Origin: Candidatus Marsarchaeota G1 archaeon BE_D
GTDB taxonomy: Archaea > Thermoproteota > Thermoprotei_A > Marsarchaeales > Marsarchaeaceae
DNA length: 43,511 nt
NCBI GenBank assembly: GCA_003019595.1
Contig: NEXD01000006.1
Coordinates: 1 to 43,511 of the forward strand
Reading direction: 5' to 3'
Below, piece by piece: positions 31,925 to 37,793 of the stretch (position 1 is the first letter of the stretch; each line of letters starts with the position of its first letter). The position numbers and the translations under genes are program-made. The notes beneath the pieces were generated by a model. It was not told where the DNA came from. It saw nothing but the letters and a program-made list of their open reading frames with translations, and ran no database searches.

Positions 31925-32719
31925 ATGAACGAGTTAGGCGCTCTGCTTATAGATATAGACGGCGTTGTGAAAAGAGGAAGCACGCTCATAGAAGGTTCAA
32001 TCGAAGCTTTCGACATCATAAAACAAAGCGGTGTTCCATTTCTTCTTATAACCAACAACTCAACAAAAACACCAGAACAGCTTTCAAAAGAGTTCGAAGA
32101 AAAAGGTCTGTCCATCGAAAAAGAGAAAATCTTTACTTCTGCAAAGGCGTTGGTTTACGCTCTTAATTCAAAAAAGGAGTACACAAAAAAAGCTTTAGAA
32201 GGCGTTCTCGCAATTGGCGAAGAAGGATTGTTGAGCGAGCTAAAACAAAGTGGTTTTAAACTTGAAACAGAATTGACACAAGGCGTTGTGGTCGTCGGGT
32301 TGGATAGCGCGTTCAACTACCAAAAACTCGTGAAAGCTATGCGCTCGATTGAGCAAGGCGCGCTGTTTTTTGCCACTAACACCGATCGCACCTATCCTAC
32401 GGAAGAAGGGAAGCTACCAGGAGCCGGTGCGCTCGTGTGTTCAGTCGTTGCTTGCACTGGGAAAAGGCCTGTGTTAGTCGGAAAACCCTCAAAAATTTTC
32501 TTTAAAGCCGCGCTATCCGCGTTAAATCTCAGAAACTCAAACATAGTGGTGATAGGCGACAGGCCTGAGACGGACATAAGGATGGCCAACAAAAACGGTT
32601 GTTCGTCGGTGCTCGTTTTGAGCGGAGTCACTACTCAAAGCGAGCTCAACAAACTACGAGAAAAGCCGAGCTTTGTCGCAAAAAACCTTTTAGAAGCGGT
32701 AAAAAAGCTAATCTATTGA
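31925..32719 (+). CDS. NagD-type HAD (class IIA) phosphatase
   Basis: 264 residues. Motif I DIDGVV (Asp10, Asp12), motif II TNNST, the alpha/beta C2A cap (about 75-185, VVVGLDSAFNYQKL, ATNTDRTYPTEEGKLPGAGAL), VGKPSKIFF with the motif III Lys, and motif IV GDRPETDI. The family includes p-nitrophenyl/phosphoglycolate and sugar phosphatases; the substrate cannot be assigned. ATG start with GAGAGGGT just upstream. Probably co-transcribed with the sugar dehydrogenase. Convergent with the small membrane gene (7-bp overlap). Confidence 0.9.
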   Translation: MNELGALLIDIDGVVKRGSTLIEGSIEAFDIIKQSGVPFLLITNNSTKTPEQLSKEFEEKGLSIEKEKIFTSAKALVYALNSKKEYTKKALEGVLAIGEEGLLSELKQSGFKLETELTQGVVVVGLDSAFNYQKLVKAMRSIEQGALFFATNTDRTYPTEEGKLPGAGALVCSVVACTGKRPVLVGKPSKIFFKAALSALNLRNSNIVVIGDRPETDIRMANKNGCSSVLVLSGVTTQSELNKLREKPSFVAKNLLEAVKKLIY

Positions 32720-32982
32720 TTGCTCTTTTCTTGCTCACCGCTTTGTTGCACGCTCGTTTCCATCGGTTTTTCTTCAGGGATAACGGGTTTTGTGCTCACC
32801 ATAACCCAGCCAAGCCAGATCGCTATTGCGGAAACGCCAACAACAAGTAGCCATACGACTATCTTAATCGCAAGCAAGGAGTACGCGTCAAACGTGGGAA
32901 CCCAAATCGCAAGCGTGAACACAACTGCGATCACCGCAAACGCGGCTAGTATAACACCCCCAACAACCCTTTCGCTTACCAT
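32713..32982 (-). CDS. Small two-helix membrane protein A, N-terminus shared with the pseudogene at 35.5 kb
   Basis: 89 residues from ATG 32982, chosen for its GGAGAG SD (32987-32992) and the TATA box at 33014-33023. The frame is open further up, but that part is transposase relic. A short charged start (MVSERV) is followed by a hydrophobic helix (7-25), a second helix (about 36-62) and a polar tail rich in Glu, Gln and Ser. The first 24 codons and the whole promoter are repeated at 35.7 kb. Function unknown. Confidence 0.7.
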   Translation of the reverse strand: MVSERVVGGVILAAFAVIAVVFTLAIWVPTFDAYSLLAIKIVVWLLVVGVSAIAIWLGWVMVSTKPVIPEEKPMETSVQQSGEQEKSNQ

Positions 32983-33033
32983 AACTCTCTCCGAAATACA
33001 CAAATGACACACACTTAAAAAGGTTTCCAACAA
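32910..33033 (-). repeat. Promoter-plus-start direct repeat, copy A (124 bp)
   Basis: Matches 35706-35828 throughout, except for one extra C here (C5 at 32957-32961 versus C4). Reading on the minus strand it holds the TATA box CCTTTTTAAG, the SD GGAGAG, the ATG and 24 codons. Its right end abuts the IS6 relic. Confidence 0.95.
33014..33023 (-). promoter_or_regulatory. TATA box of small membrane gene A
   Basis: Minus strand CCTTTTTAAG, about 35 bp before the ATG; predicts transcription near 32992, at the SD. An identical box precedes the frameshifted copy B. Confidence 0.5.
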
Positions 33034-33600
33034 GATGCGATGGTGTCCGGATAAGCATTCATATGCATCGCCCCCCACTCTGTGTACCACCATACGAATA
33101 GTTAGAGGAAGCCCACGAGCGGCGAAAAGAGTGTTGGGGTTGATGTTGTCGTAGAGCACCCTGGTCCTGTGTTTGAGGTATACGAAGACTCAACCGAGCT
33201 ACGCAACCCAAAGGTTTGGTGCACGTGTTTGTGGAAGCCCGTTCCTGCGGAGCACGGCTTCACGGCACCAGGGACCCCTATCCGTGAAGATGACCAAGCT
33301 ACCCACGTATCTTCTTTCTTTATAGGAACGAGTTTTTGTTAATGTTTGGCGGTACACCGAACCAAATAGGCTGTTTCGTATAAGTGTAAACCGCAACCCA
33401 AAGTAAATCGGTCTGCTACCGCACTTTGCAACTAGTCCACTGCGATAACTGGGTGTTCGCGTACCCACAAGTGAAAGTTGAATCTTTGCTTGACGAATTT
33501 TGCTTCATTAAGACTTTGAACCTCTGAGAGTAAAGAACTCAAGGTCTTAGTGCTTGGTTCAAAACGTTGAGAAAACCGTTATCATCTCAGCCTCAAGCTC
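33034..33600 (-). mobile_element. Decayed IS6-family transposase
   Basis: Pieces of an IS6-type DDE transposase occur in order on the minus strand but in different frames. An N-terminal SLRLR...FSQRFE piece (near 33599-33555) is interrupted by two stops. WVREHPVIAVD (33467-33435) carries the first catalytic Asp and is followed at once by TAG. TDRGPW (33285-33268) carries the second Asp. QTFGLRSSVES (33223-33191) carries the Glu region. Then VFVYLKHRTRVLYDNI and NPNTLFAARGLPLTIRM (to about 33093) follow. At least three frameshifts and several stops; not functional. The 3' end is cut off at the 124-bp repeat. This explains most of the gene-free stretch. Confidence 0.8.
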
Positions 33601-33635
33601 TTTACAAAAAATTAAATTCCTAAAAAATGTAAATA

Positions 33636-33696
33636 GGTTCTATTTTACTCACCAAAATCAAAGTCGTGAGGACACACAACTTTACTGAATAGAACC
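33636..33696. repeat. 61-bp unit bounded by 9-bp inverted repeats
   Basis: GGTTCTATT (33636-33644) and AATAGAACC (33688-33696) face each other. The sequence resembles IS6-type terminal repeats (GGTTCTGTT-like), and the outer copy lies where the upstream end of the decayed transposase element would be. The rest of 33601-33744 is AT-rich and has no gene. Confidence 0.5.
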
Positions 33697-33744
33697 GATA
33701 CCAATCCCAAAATTTATTATTGTTTTTAACGAAAAGGATGTTTA

Positions 33745-35556
33745 ATGAAAAAACCGCTGATCATTATGATTCTATTGCTTTTTTCTATTCAAATGTGTTT
33801 TTCAGAAGGTGACAGCACACAAAATGTTAAAACGGTTGATACTAATTCCACAATGTTGTTTGACGAGCAACTTGCGTTGACTTTCACCAAGAATTCAAGC
33901 ACGCTGAGCGTCAATGTGACCGCGCCGGCACAATCAGATGGCTATGGCGTGGCTTATCTGCTAAACGGATTGAGCAATAAAGGCTATTGGTATCAAGTGG
34001 GCGTAAGTTGGCAGTGGTTCGGTTTTCAAGGCTTTGCTGCTATCTTTGACGTTTGGGACCCAAACAGAAGTGCAGTTAACGCCTTTCAGGGTGGTCCAGC
34101 ACTTATTGGACTTAACGCAAACGATTTTGACACCTTTGAGCTTTCAATTCGATTTTTGAATAATAATGTCATAATGTCGGTTGTCGACTTAAACACTTCG
34201 AGTCAAGCAAGTTTGAAAGAGCGAACATTTGGCGCAAATACTTTTATAGGAAACCCTTTTTCTCCTCTTTACCATGGTTATTTTTCGGGACTTATGACTG
34301 AAATGTATCACGATAAGCCTTACTATGGCACCGAAGTTCCTGCGTACTACACGATGAATTTTTCTAATGAAAAAGTGTGGTTATGGATGGACGAATTTGA
34401 TTACACTAATGGTAGTGTTTTGTTCTTTAAGTCCACTAACATTCCCGTAACCCCCAATTATTCACTGAGTTTTAACGGTGGGTTTGAGAGCTTGGGCACT
34501 CACTCCTTTTCGACTGGTGTCACCACTTTTGTCAATGTGACTGCGCTCTTTAAATTAATAGGTTCAAGTTCGCAAAAGCCCACTTTGACACTACGCTATT
34601 TTTCATATACGCGGAACGTTTCTATTCCAAAAAGATTAACAGTGCCAAGAGGCACTCTTTGGAGCGTCCCGACATATCTTGTGAATTCTAATAACACAAG
34701 AATAATACTCGAAGGTAATTCAACAGGCGTTTTTCTTAGCTCAGAACTCTTAAACCTGAGTTACTTTGAGCAATACAGCGTGACGCTGAACATCAAATTG
34801 ATAGGAAGTGGTACGATAATTCCTGTAATTTATTTTTCAAGTTTTGGAGAAAACGTGTCACAGCCTCTTATTGGCTTGTCACAAATTTGGGTTGATTCTC
34901 ACACATATATAAAATTTTCAAAAATCACTAACGATTCTTTTGTTGAATGGGTGGCGTATCCAAATTATTATTATGTGGTAAGACCAGTCAATATCACAGT
35001 GGTTTACATAGAAGAGTTTTTCGTTTCGATCATTTCTAATATCCTCCAAGGTGGACAAGTGCAACCAAAAAGCGGCTTTTATCCGATAAACACTACAATT
35101 GAGCTATCCGCTCATCAGAATAAAGGTTGGGTCTTTGTGGCATGGTTGGGAAATGGAAGCGTGTCCTATACTGGGTCAAACCCGCAAGCAAGTGTGGTTG
35201 TGCAAAGTCCACTTTTTGAAGAGGCACTTTTTAAACCAACGCTTTCAATTTGCACCTCTAAAGGTATTAGTGTAGTCTATAATGTGAGCACAGCGACTAG
35301 TAATACCGTCACACCCGATAAATGTGTCGTGATTTTAGTCAGCGGAAAAATCACTTTGCAAGCAAAACCTGATTTCCCTTTGTACACTTTTTTGGGTTGG
35401 AACGGCTCGATAAATAGCACTAGTACTGCTATTACTCTTTATGCGACTCAACCTTTGTTTTTACAAGTAAGAGCCGGATTAAACTTATTGTTAATTACAG
35501 CTATAGTGTCATGTATTTTAATCGCTGTGATTTTTGCGTTAAAATATGCGCGTTAA
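33745..35556 (+). CDS. Large secreted, membrane-anchored surface protein
   Basis: 603 residues. Signal peptide 1-20 (MKKPLIIMILLLFSIQMCFS), a long beta-rich ectodomain with about 20 N-x-S/T sequons, a C-terminal membrane helix (about 578-599) and a basic end (KYAR). Two InlB-B-like repeats near the C-terminus: GGQVQPKSGFYPINTTIELSA...WVFVAWLGNGS, then ITLQAKPDFPLYTFLGWNGS. The N-terminal region with GYWYQVGVSWQW is weakly reminiscent of thermopsin-type proteins, but no catalytic residues can be named. ATG with AAGGATG upstream. More AT-rich and richer in Asn, Ser and Thr than its neighbours, which suggests transfer or fast evolution. Confidence 0.85.
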   Translation: MKKPLIIMILLLFSIQMCFSEGDSTQNVKTVDTNSTMLFDEQLALTFTKNSSTLSVNVTAPAQSDGYGVAYLLNGLSNKGYWYQVGVSWQWFGFQGFAAIFDVWDPNRSAVNAFQGGPALIGLNANDFDTFELSIRFLNNNVIMSVVDLNTSSQASLKERTFGANTFIGNPFSPLYHGYFSGLMTEMYHDKPYYGTEVPAYYTMNFSNEKVWLWMDEFDYTNGSVLFFKSTNIPVTPNYSLSFNGGFESLGTHSFSTGVTTFVNVTALFKLIGSSSQKPTLTLRYFSYTRNVSIPKRLTVPRGTLWSVPTYLVNSNNTRIILEGNSTGVFLSSELLNLSYFEQYSVTLNIKLIGSGTIIPVIYFSSFGENVSQPLIGLSQIWVDSHTYIKFSKITNDSFVEWVAYPNYYYVVRPVNITVVYIEEFFVSIISNILQGGQVQPKSGFYPINTTIELSAHQNKGWVFVAWLGNGSVSYTGSNPQASVVVQSPLFEEALFKPTLSICTSKGISVVYNVSTATSNTVTPDKCVVILVSGKITLQAKPDFPLYTFLGWNGSINSTSTAITLYATQPLFLQVRAGLNLLLITAIVSCILIAVIFALKYAR

Positions 35557-35777
35557 ATGAGGCAGTTGAAAGAAATCAGCTATATAGAATCCAGTACACG
35601 TGTTCGAGCAAACACACCCGCAATCCGGTGGTTCTCCCCCACCTCCGCCACCTCCCGTAATACAAGGTGTGTTACAAGGTATATTTCCAGCCATTGTAAT
35701 TGCAACAAGCGTGAACACAACTGCGATCACCGCAAACGCGGCTAGTATAACACCCCAACAACCCTTTCGCTTACCAT
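35539..35777 (-). pseudogene. Frameshifted copy B of the small membrane gene, with Gly/Cys-rich C-terminus
   Basis: From the ATG at 35777, which has the same SD and promoter as gene A, translation reaches a stop after 11 codons (MVSERVVGVLY). One C is missing from the C tract at 35753-35756. Restoring it gives the same 24-residue start as gene A, then VAITMAGNIPCNTPC, seven consecutive glycines, EPPDCGCVCSNTC and a short tail, ending at 35539. The six-cysteine, poly-Gly segment has no counterpart in gene A. It could be a true frameshift, a phase-variable tract or a sequencing slip. Overlaps the surface-protein gene by 18 bp. Confidence 0.65.
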
Positions 35778-35828
35778 AACTCTCTCCGAAATACACAAAT
35801 GACACACACTTAAAAAGGTTTCCAACAA
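35706..35828 (-). repeat. Promoter-plus-start direct repeat, copy B (123 bp)
   Basis: Partner of 32910-33033, same orientation, one base shorter in the C tract. Beyond it, 35829-35945 holds no gene, only the glmS promoter. Confidence 0.95.
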
Positions 35829-35913
35829 TAGATGGTGTACATATAACTGGCGGGTGAGCGTCGAGGCTAAGCGCGGAAATCCATTATCCAGACATCACTC
35901 AACAACAATCCAA

Positions 35914-35947
35914 ACGTTTATGTTACCGCACAACACACTTGTTGTGT
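35914..35947 (+). promoter_or_regulatory. glmS promoter and inverted repeat over the start codon
   Basis: ACGTTTATGT (35914-35923) is centred about 27 bp before the GTG, predicting a leaderless transcript. CACAACA (35930-35936) and TGTTGTG (35941-35947) form a 7-bp inverted repeat reaching into the start codon. Confidence 0.5.
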
Positions 35948-37793
35948 GTGTGGAATCGTCGGTGTTGTGCGCTTAAAACCGCAAAATGATGTCACACTTG
36001 GCAAGCTCATAAAAACTTGCTTGGAAAGACTTGAGTACAGGGGATACGACTCTGTGGGTTTTGCGGTTTTGAAAAACGGCGAACTCGTTTACCGAAAAAA
36101 GAAGGGAAAGATCGCTGACGTTTCCCCCGCTCTTAGATTCGAAGAGTTTGACGGCTCAATAGGCGTTGGACACACAAGATGGGCGACGCATGGGCCGCCA
36201 AACGATGCGAACGCGCACCCACATATGGATTGCACTCGGTCAATCGCGGTGGTGCACAACGGGATAATCGCAAACTATGCGAAACTCAAAGACGAACTCT
36301 TGGCTTTGGGCCACAAGTTTTTAAGCGAAACCGACACAGAAGTTTTTGCGCATCTGTTCGAGCAAAATATCAAAACCTCTCAAACTTGCTACGAAGCGTT
36401 CAAAAAGGCGGTGTCACAAATAACAGGCTCTTACGCGCTTGTTTGCATTTGCTTGAAAGAGCCCGAAAAAATGTTTTTCGCAAGAAAAAACACGCCGCTT
36501 GTTATAGGAGTTTCCGAAGAACAAATTTTTGTGGCAAGCGACATTCCCGCTTTTCTTGAATACACGAATCGTGTGATTGTGATAAACGACAACGAACTCG
36601 GATATGTTTCAACCGATGGAAAAATAGTGATCGAAAATCTTCTTACATCCCAAAAAGTGCAGCCTTATTCAAGGCTAAGGCTCATTCCTTGGACGGCTGA
36701 ACTTGCAAGAAAAGGTGGCTATCCGCATTACATGATAAAAGAGATACACGAACAGCCGATCGCGATAGGCGACACCGTTCGCTACAACGCAAACGATAGC
36801 GCGCTGTCGCTTGCCGCTGAGCTTGTCAACTCAGCGCGCAACTTGTTCCTAGTTGGCGCGGGAACTGCGCACTACGCGTCTCTCACAGGAAGGGATGCGC
36901 TTGCGCTCCTTGCAAGAAAACCTTCAATTCCTGTGATTTCTTCGGAGTTCTCCCTTTTTTCAAAGACCGCTACTGAAAGCGATGTAGTGCTTGCGGTAAG
37001 CCAATCGGGAGAAACTCACGACACACTAATGGCAATAAGGTCGTTCAAAGAAAAGGGTGCGAAAGTGATTTCAATTTGTAACGTCATGGAAAGCGCTATA
37101 CCAAGAGAGTCTCACATTCAGCTTTACACAAAGGCTGGTCCTGAAATAGGAGTTGCCGCTACAAAAACCTTTGTTTCACAGGTGTCACTTCTACAGCTTC
37201 TTGCTGTGCGCGTAGGTCTTCTTAACGGAAGTTTAAAGGAAACAGAGGCAAGCGAGTATATCAAGAAGCTTGACGAAATTCCTGTTTTGGTGGAGAGAAA
37301 CATAGCGCTCTCAGAAGTTCGCGCGAAAGAACTTGCTCGAATTTTCAAGAATAAGCAAAGCGCGTACTACTTAAGTAGGGGAACCGGTGTCCCTCTTGCG
37401 AAAGAGGGCGCGTTAAAGGTGAAAGAGGTGGCGTACATACACGCCGAAGCTTACGAGGCAGGCGAGTCCAAACACGGGCCGATAAGCCTTGTGAGCGAAG
37501 GATTTCCAGTGGTATTCGTGTTTTCTGACAACGAAGTTTTTGATCAAATGAGGAGCAACCTCGTTGAAATGAGGAGTCGTGGCGCGTACACCGTTGGATT
37601 AATCGGTAAAGAAAGAAAAGCCGAGTTGGCGGAGACTCTTGATTATTCGTTTGACCTCAGCGCTTCCGATTCGCTTTTGAACACGATAGCGTTTGCGCCG
37701 ACCCTTCAATTGATCGCGTACTACTTAGCGCTTGAGAGGGGCTATGACCCAGATAAGCCACGAAATCTCGCAAAGACCGTGACTGTGGAGTGA
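35946..37793 (+). CDS. glmS: Glutamine-fructose-6-phosphate aminotransferase
   Basis: Makes glucosamine 6-phosphate, first step to UDP-GlcNAc. 615 residues. GTG start gives MCGIVGVV, so the nucleophile Cys2 is exposed after Met removal. Class II glutaminase domain: RLEYRGYDSVG, GHTRWATHG, AHPHMD, HNGIIANY, SETDTEV. Two SIS domains follow: SGETHDTLMAI, TKTFVSQV and KEGALKVKEVAYIHAEAYEAGESKHGPI; C-terminus KTVTVE. Followed after 6 bp by the GlmU-like gene, a logical pathway pair. Confidence 0.97.
   Translation: MCGIVGVVRLKPQNDVTLGKLIKTCLERLEYRGYDSVGFAVLKNGELVYRKKKGKIADVSPALRFEEFDGSIGVGHTRWATHGPPNDANAHPHMDCTRSIAVVHNGIIANYAKLKDELLALGHKFLSETDTEVFAHLFEQNIKTSQTCYEAFKKAVSQITGSYALVCICLKEPEKMFFARKNTPLVIGVSEEQIFVASDIPAFLEYTNRVIVINDNELGYVSTDGKIVIENLLTSQKVQPYSRLRLIPWTAELARKGGYPHYMIKEIHEQPIAIGDTVRYNANDSALSLAAELVNSARNLFLVGAGTAHYASLTGRDALALLARKPSIPVISSEFSLFSKTATESDVVLAVSQSGETHDTLMAIRSFKEKGAKVISICNVMESAIPRESHIQLYTKAGPEIGVAATKTFVSQVSLLQLLAVRVGLLNGSLKETEASEYIKKLDEIPVLVERNIALSEVRAKELARIFKNKQSAYYLSRGTGVPLAKEGALKVKEVAYIHAEAYEAGESKHGPISLVSEGFPVVFVFSDNEVFDQMRSNLVEMRSRGAYTVGLIGKERKAELAETLDYSFDLSASDSLLNTIAFAPTLQLIAYYLALERGYDPDKPRNLAKTVTVE

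Follow-up and report, generated by a model that had tools for sequence, protein, structure and literature searches.

A gene start repeated on both sides of an IS6-associated block in an uncultured Marsarchaeota archaeon

In the genome of Candidatus Marsarchaeota G1 archaeon BE_D, a promoter and the first 24 codons of the small membrane protein gene P0001 are present on both sides of a segment that holds a surface-protein gene. The locus lies in a 43,511-nt stretch of contig NEXD01000006.1, referred to here as the window. We observed the anatomy of the repeat, IS6 and MITE debris around the segment, a related block in another genus, the P0001-glmS neighbourhood in relatives and a broken reading frame at one of the copies. 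Taken as a whole, the locus is probably a laterally moved, IS-associated cargo that carries a captured P0001 start, lies beside that gene, and had its two copies of the start homogenised by homologous recombination. Remains of IS6 and MITE elements are combined here with cargo that probably moved laterally and a gene start that was probably captured. For the most part, this is ordinary mobile-DNA biology in a new example.

Table 1. Features of the locus, with positions in the window
Feature	Position	Strand	Remarks
HAD-family hydrolase gene P0005, left native neighbour	31925..32719	+	Pfam PF13344/PF13242; adjoins P0001 in G003 and G005
P0001, intact 89-aa small membrane protein	32713..32982	-	first 24 codons in copy 1
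Repeat copy 1	32910..33033 (124 nt)	-	promoter, SD-like motif, codons 1-24 of P0001
Decayed IS6-family insertion sequence	33039..~33705	-	left inverted repeat GATGGTGTCCGGATAAGC at 33040-33057; transposase remnant
Surface-protein gene P0003, 603 aa	33745..35556	+	signal-like N-terminus, weak InlB B-repeat-like match, C-terminal hydrophobic helix
Short Gly/Cys-rich frame, joined to copy 2	35539..35805	-	out of frame with the unit's ATG at 35777
Repeat copy 2	35706..35828 (123 nt)	-	one base shorter, frameshifted
IS6-type MITE	35831..35899		63-bp core 35834-35896, near-matching 8-bp flanks CAACAATA / CAACAACA
glmS-type gene (glutamine-fructose-6-phosphate transaminase), right native neighbour	35946..37793	+	Pfam SIS, GATase domains; follows P0001 in G003 and G005

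The two copies of the unit are direct repeats about 2795 nt apart, both preceding minus-strand frames, and their sole difference is one C (on the plus strand, CCCCC in copy 1 and CCCC in copy 2). The original prediction had described this pair, and both the repeat and its coordinates were confirmed. Its reading of a TATA box, an SD and an ATG in both copies also agrees with what we found (TATA-like TTTTTAA, a GGAGAG SD-like motif and ATG), as does its statement that the two genes have nothing in common after codon 24, where the downstream sequences are unrelated. No other repeat family of at least 30 nt occurs in the 43.5-kb window, and a genome-wide search with the unit returned two copies (E 1e-59 and 2.6e-57) and no third. 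The repeat is therefore far beyond chance. The longest exact repeat between the copies is 76 bp.

Homologues of P0001 were found in 41 of 60 related genomes. In G003 and G005, which belong to the same family as the source archaeon and to another genus, P0001 is located between the HAD-hydrolase gene and glmS without the insert. Since these relatives have the same neighbours, the body of P0001 and copy 1 are native on one side, and copy 1 is the native start of this conserved gene, which keeps its complete promoter and frame. The orientation of P0001 is opposite to both neighbours in the window and the same as that of its neighbours in G003 and G005 (loci L065 and L066). Outward of copy 2 come the MITE and then the upstream region of glmS, so that, judged by its sequence, the outer side of copy 2 also looks like native intergenic DNA. 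Contigs of G002 and G004 that end at P0001 were considered as a sign of a repeat in those genomes, and this idea was dropped, as the sequences are without a second unit.

The base missing from copy 2 falls in the coding part of the unit. Copy 1 is translated as MVSERVVGGVILAAFAVIAVVFTL-AIWV... and opens an intact protein of 89 aa; copy 2, read from its ATG (35777), gives MVSERVVGVLY and a stop, with the frame shifted after codon 8 and ended at codon 12. The tail frame (...VILAAFAVIAVVFTL-VAITMAGNIPC...), which is convergent with P0003, is open only from GTGs upstream of the ATG (35805, 35796) or from internal starts. Thus, the proposal that one start serves two proteins holds for the DNA and fails for the protein as sequenced, because the missing base shifts the frame of copy 2. 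A protein from copy 2 would require either that the missing base be a sequencing error or that translation begin at another place.

A promoter and start in common with different continuations, an adjoining surface-protein gene, and direct repeats that could delete the segment had suggested an expression-plus-anchor cassette or an antigenic-switching locus. This reading was not borne out and appears very improbable. The proposed search for many unit copies on different tails found two in the genome and, among 10 relatives, no copy besides a diverged one in G004, which has the same short tail. Neither several cassettes with variable tails nor two products translated from the shared start are present, copy 2 being frameshifted and stopped at codon 12. 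Moreover, the surface-protein gene is on the strand opposite to the unit, has its own start and makes no use of the unit, and no site-specific recombinase or integrase gene was found in the segment between the copies. Nothing here points to gene switching. The prediction that some 2.8 kb, surface-protein gene included, would be lost if the copies recombined by a crossover is nevertheless supported by the direct repeats; the deletion would leave P0001 with a start, although, depending on the crossover point, its product could inherit the frameshift.

As had been anticipated, the segment between the copies is accessory; it contains only P0003, the short frame and the IS6 relic. A viral or plasmid source for the surface gene was considered and rejected, as no relative was found in the viral contigs or plasmid records searched; the unit was not found in the viral contigs either. 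The region between copy 1 and the surface gene is the IS6 relic rather than a structured RNA, for which Rfam gave no match at either threshold and the sequence did not fold better than its shuffled versions.

The relic aligns over its full length with a dispersed element of ~724-750 bp that has inverted repeats GATGGTGTCCGGATAAGC and 8-bp target repeats, which in other copies read CTTACGCA (L056), ATTTGCGG (L052) and AAATTTTC (L050). When a majority consensus was built from the dispersed copies, it encoded an IS6-type transposase (PF13610, E 6.9e-12, 46.1 bits with a cut-off of 27; NF033587, E 2.6e-21, with 76 bits, under the 125-bit cut-off, for a partial frame). The assignment to the IS6 family thus draws its IS6/IS240-type DDE transposase from this consensus, and its terminal inverted repeats and 8-bp target repeats from the other copies. 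The window copy itself is decayed: its left end is exact, its right end is degenerate with an approximate coordinate, and no clear matching target repeat was seen at its two ends. All translated copies of the element have broken frames. Relics of ~740 bp are dispersed over relatives and the archaeon's own genome (L050, L052, L053, L055, L056, L062), and three in the own genome lie at contig ends (C8, C11, C92), where they probably break the assembly.

On the other side of the cargo, the MITE scored 43, the best of 200 shuffles scoring 29. It has both IS ends, no transposase, and flanking repeats that agree at 7 of 8 positions, the left one overlapping the end of the unit. A family of such MITEs (62-64 bp, with IS6-type ends) was also observed in G002 and G004 (L079 4284-4346, L138, L141, L144, L150 and others); its members are shorter than the IS6 MITEs listed in a review of the family (PMC7986276).

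The locus resembles the IS6 elements, pseudo-compound transposons and translocatable units of that review in its inverted repeats, 8-bp target repeats and DDE transposase, in an element length of 700-750 bp as in archaeal clades, and in having IS6-type ends near both sides of the cargo. IS6 elements produce intramolecular and replicative rearrangements (PMC7986276). However, every copy read here is decayed, the MITE that forms the right-hand end has a core of 63 bp as compared with IS6 MITEs of 227 and 336 bp (PMC7986276), and no intact compound transposon was seen: instead of two directly oriented IS flanking the cargo, the window has one IS6 relic and one MITE.

A related block was found in Candidatus Marsarchaeota G2 archaeon ECH_B_1 (G004, contig NEXG01000005.1), which belongs to a genus other than that of the window. 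The block is 84% identical over 2.5 kb. Along with the surface gene and the short frame, it contains a portion of the IS6 relic and the unit (76%). Here the surface gene carries one in-frame stop. The short frame is open; where the window unit has its ATG, G004 has ATA, and an ATG in frame lies upstream. The surface protein is 83% identical between the window and G004, compared with ~50-65% protein identity of P0001 and its neighbours to their family relatives, which indicates that the block moved laterally. For the surface gene, dN was 0.08 and dS 0.35; constraint has therefore acted on it over some of its history at least. The G004 block is not adjacent to that genome's own P0001. The 24 codons of its unit are 79% identical to the start of P0001 in the window and 57% identical to that of G004's own P0001, and the start therefore appears to come from a P0001 like that in the window and to have travelled together with the cargo. 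Since G004 has the fusion of unit and tail too, this fusion is older than the split or spread of the block.

Behind the unit in G004, the MITE of the window did not rise above shuffles in the expected orientation, and there was a marginal match to the right end of the IS. G004 has one IS6 relic and this marginal end instead of the two directly oriented IS of a pseudo-compound transposon. The repeats labelled R give the impression of a compound element in G004; this was set aside, as they are a different IS-like repeat that is absent from the window. The G004 block is flanked by another direct repeat of ~107 bp, 83% identical (L048 6075-6180 and 9923-10027), with only two occurrences among five genomes and inverted GCTTTGTTGxATAAT ends; it looks like the remains of another ~1-kb IS. 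Because the block lies between other IS-like repeats in G004, IS6 need not have moved it. Near the block (L048 13104-13925), an open frame resembles a TnpB-type protein, by eye from its translation.

The genome of the source archaeon is a draft (195 contigs, 91% complete, 5.7% contamination) with several IS6 copies at contig ends, and an assembler could have duplicated or mis-joined one copy of the unit, as the original prediction had itself envisaged for the second. We find this highly improbable: copy 2 with its tail was found independently in G004, and copy 1 with the body of P0001 in G003 and G005, so that each junction is backed by another assembly, while exact repeats do not exceed 76 bp.

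The window copies show 0 substitutions between them and ~76-80% identity to the G004 unit. Judging from the dS of 0.35, copies left undisturbed since the split of the block should differ at many weakly constrained sites of the unit. Their identity despite the older fusion therefore indicates recent recombination between the window copies. This supports recent homogenisation, as had been suggested from the identity of coding and non-coding sequence alike. The simplest account is recent homologous recombination, either conversion or a crossover that placed the block here; the data fit either. Two copies in one genome that resemble each other more than the orthologous copy in G004 are the pattern of homogenisation by gene conversion, and mtrA in methanogens (PMC4632066) shows the same, with the difference that the homology there is a whole gene and here 124 bp of promoter and gene start.

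Conversion between archaeal duplicates can be long-lasting, mtrA being an instance on record (PMC4632066). An old in-place duplication might accordingly have been kept identical by continuous conversion, with the block arising or arriving at P0001 before the G004 copy was exported and the two starts co-evolving since. It would explain why the window copies are identical even though the fusion predates the split from the G004 block, but 124 bp is short for efficient conversion, and a recent crossover or re-insertion accounts for the same identity. We regard this history as possible, though unlikely.

In the reading that we prefer, a mobile block (IS6 relic, surface gene and short Gly/Cys frame) would carry a captured promoter and the first 24 codons of P0001, presumably taken from P0001 of the window's lineage, and would have moved between genera. 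With the block between P0001 and glmS, the P0001 start would flank it on both sides: P0001 would retain its complete start in copy 1, and copy 2, on the MITE-glmS side, would head the short frame that is broken here. The copies would then have been homogenised by recent homologous recombination, through gene conversion or through one crossover within the 124 bp of homology that placed the block here. Exactly these flanks would be expected if a circular block had recombined once, in the unit, with the native locus; conversion following an older insertion would give the same picture.

An intact gene with its start on one side and an orphan start on the other is also the geometry expected of an integrase-type element that entered the 5' end of P0001, supplied a new start and was then reduced to 2.8 kb. 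SXT integrates at the 5' end of prfC and supplies a new start; there too, the gene keeps a complete start and an orphan start remains on the far side. However, the present segment is 2.8 kb long and has no integrase, and G004 has its related block at a site unrelated to this one, with the unit internal rather than at the ends. We therefore give very little credence to such an origin. A tRNA as integration site was also considered, and the window has none.

As a worked case, the locus illustrates how homologous recombination and a captured start can combine with IS6/MITE debris into a mosaic in an uncultured archaeal lineage. It also calls for caution, as a striking promoter-plus-anchor in common can be a by-product of cargo movement and not a regulatory design. 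A bolder idea, which we consider very improbable, is that recombinase-free cargo uses a host promoter and start as a landing pad, entering and leaving by homologous recombination without breaking the gene, so that the surface gene comes and goes within the population. Should strains that have the block coexist with strains that lack it, homology-driven gain and loss of a surface protein could be tested simply at this locus.

Elsewhere in the window, the last 61 bases of the contig (43451-43511) are 93% identical to a stretch of G004 (L054 10974-11034). This is far above the usual identity between the two genomes, and the stretch is probably the end of a mobile element.
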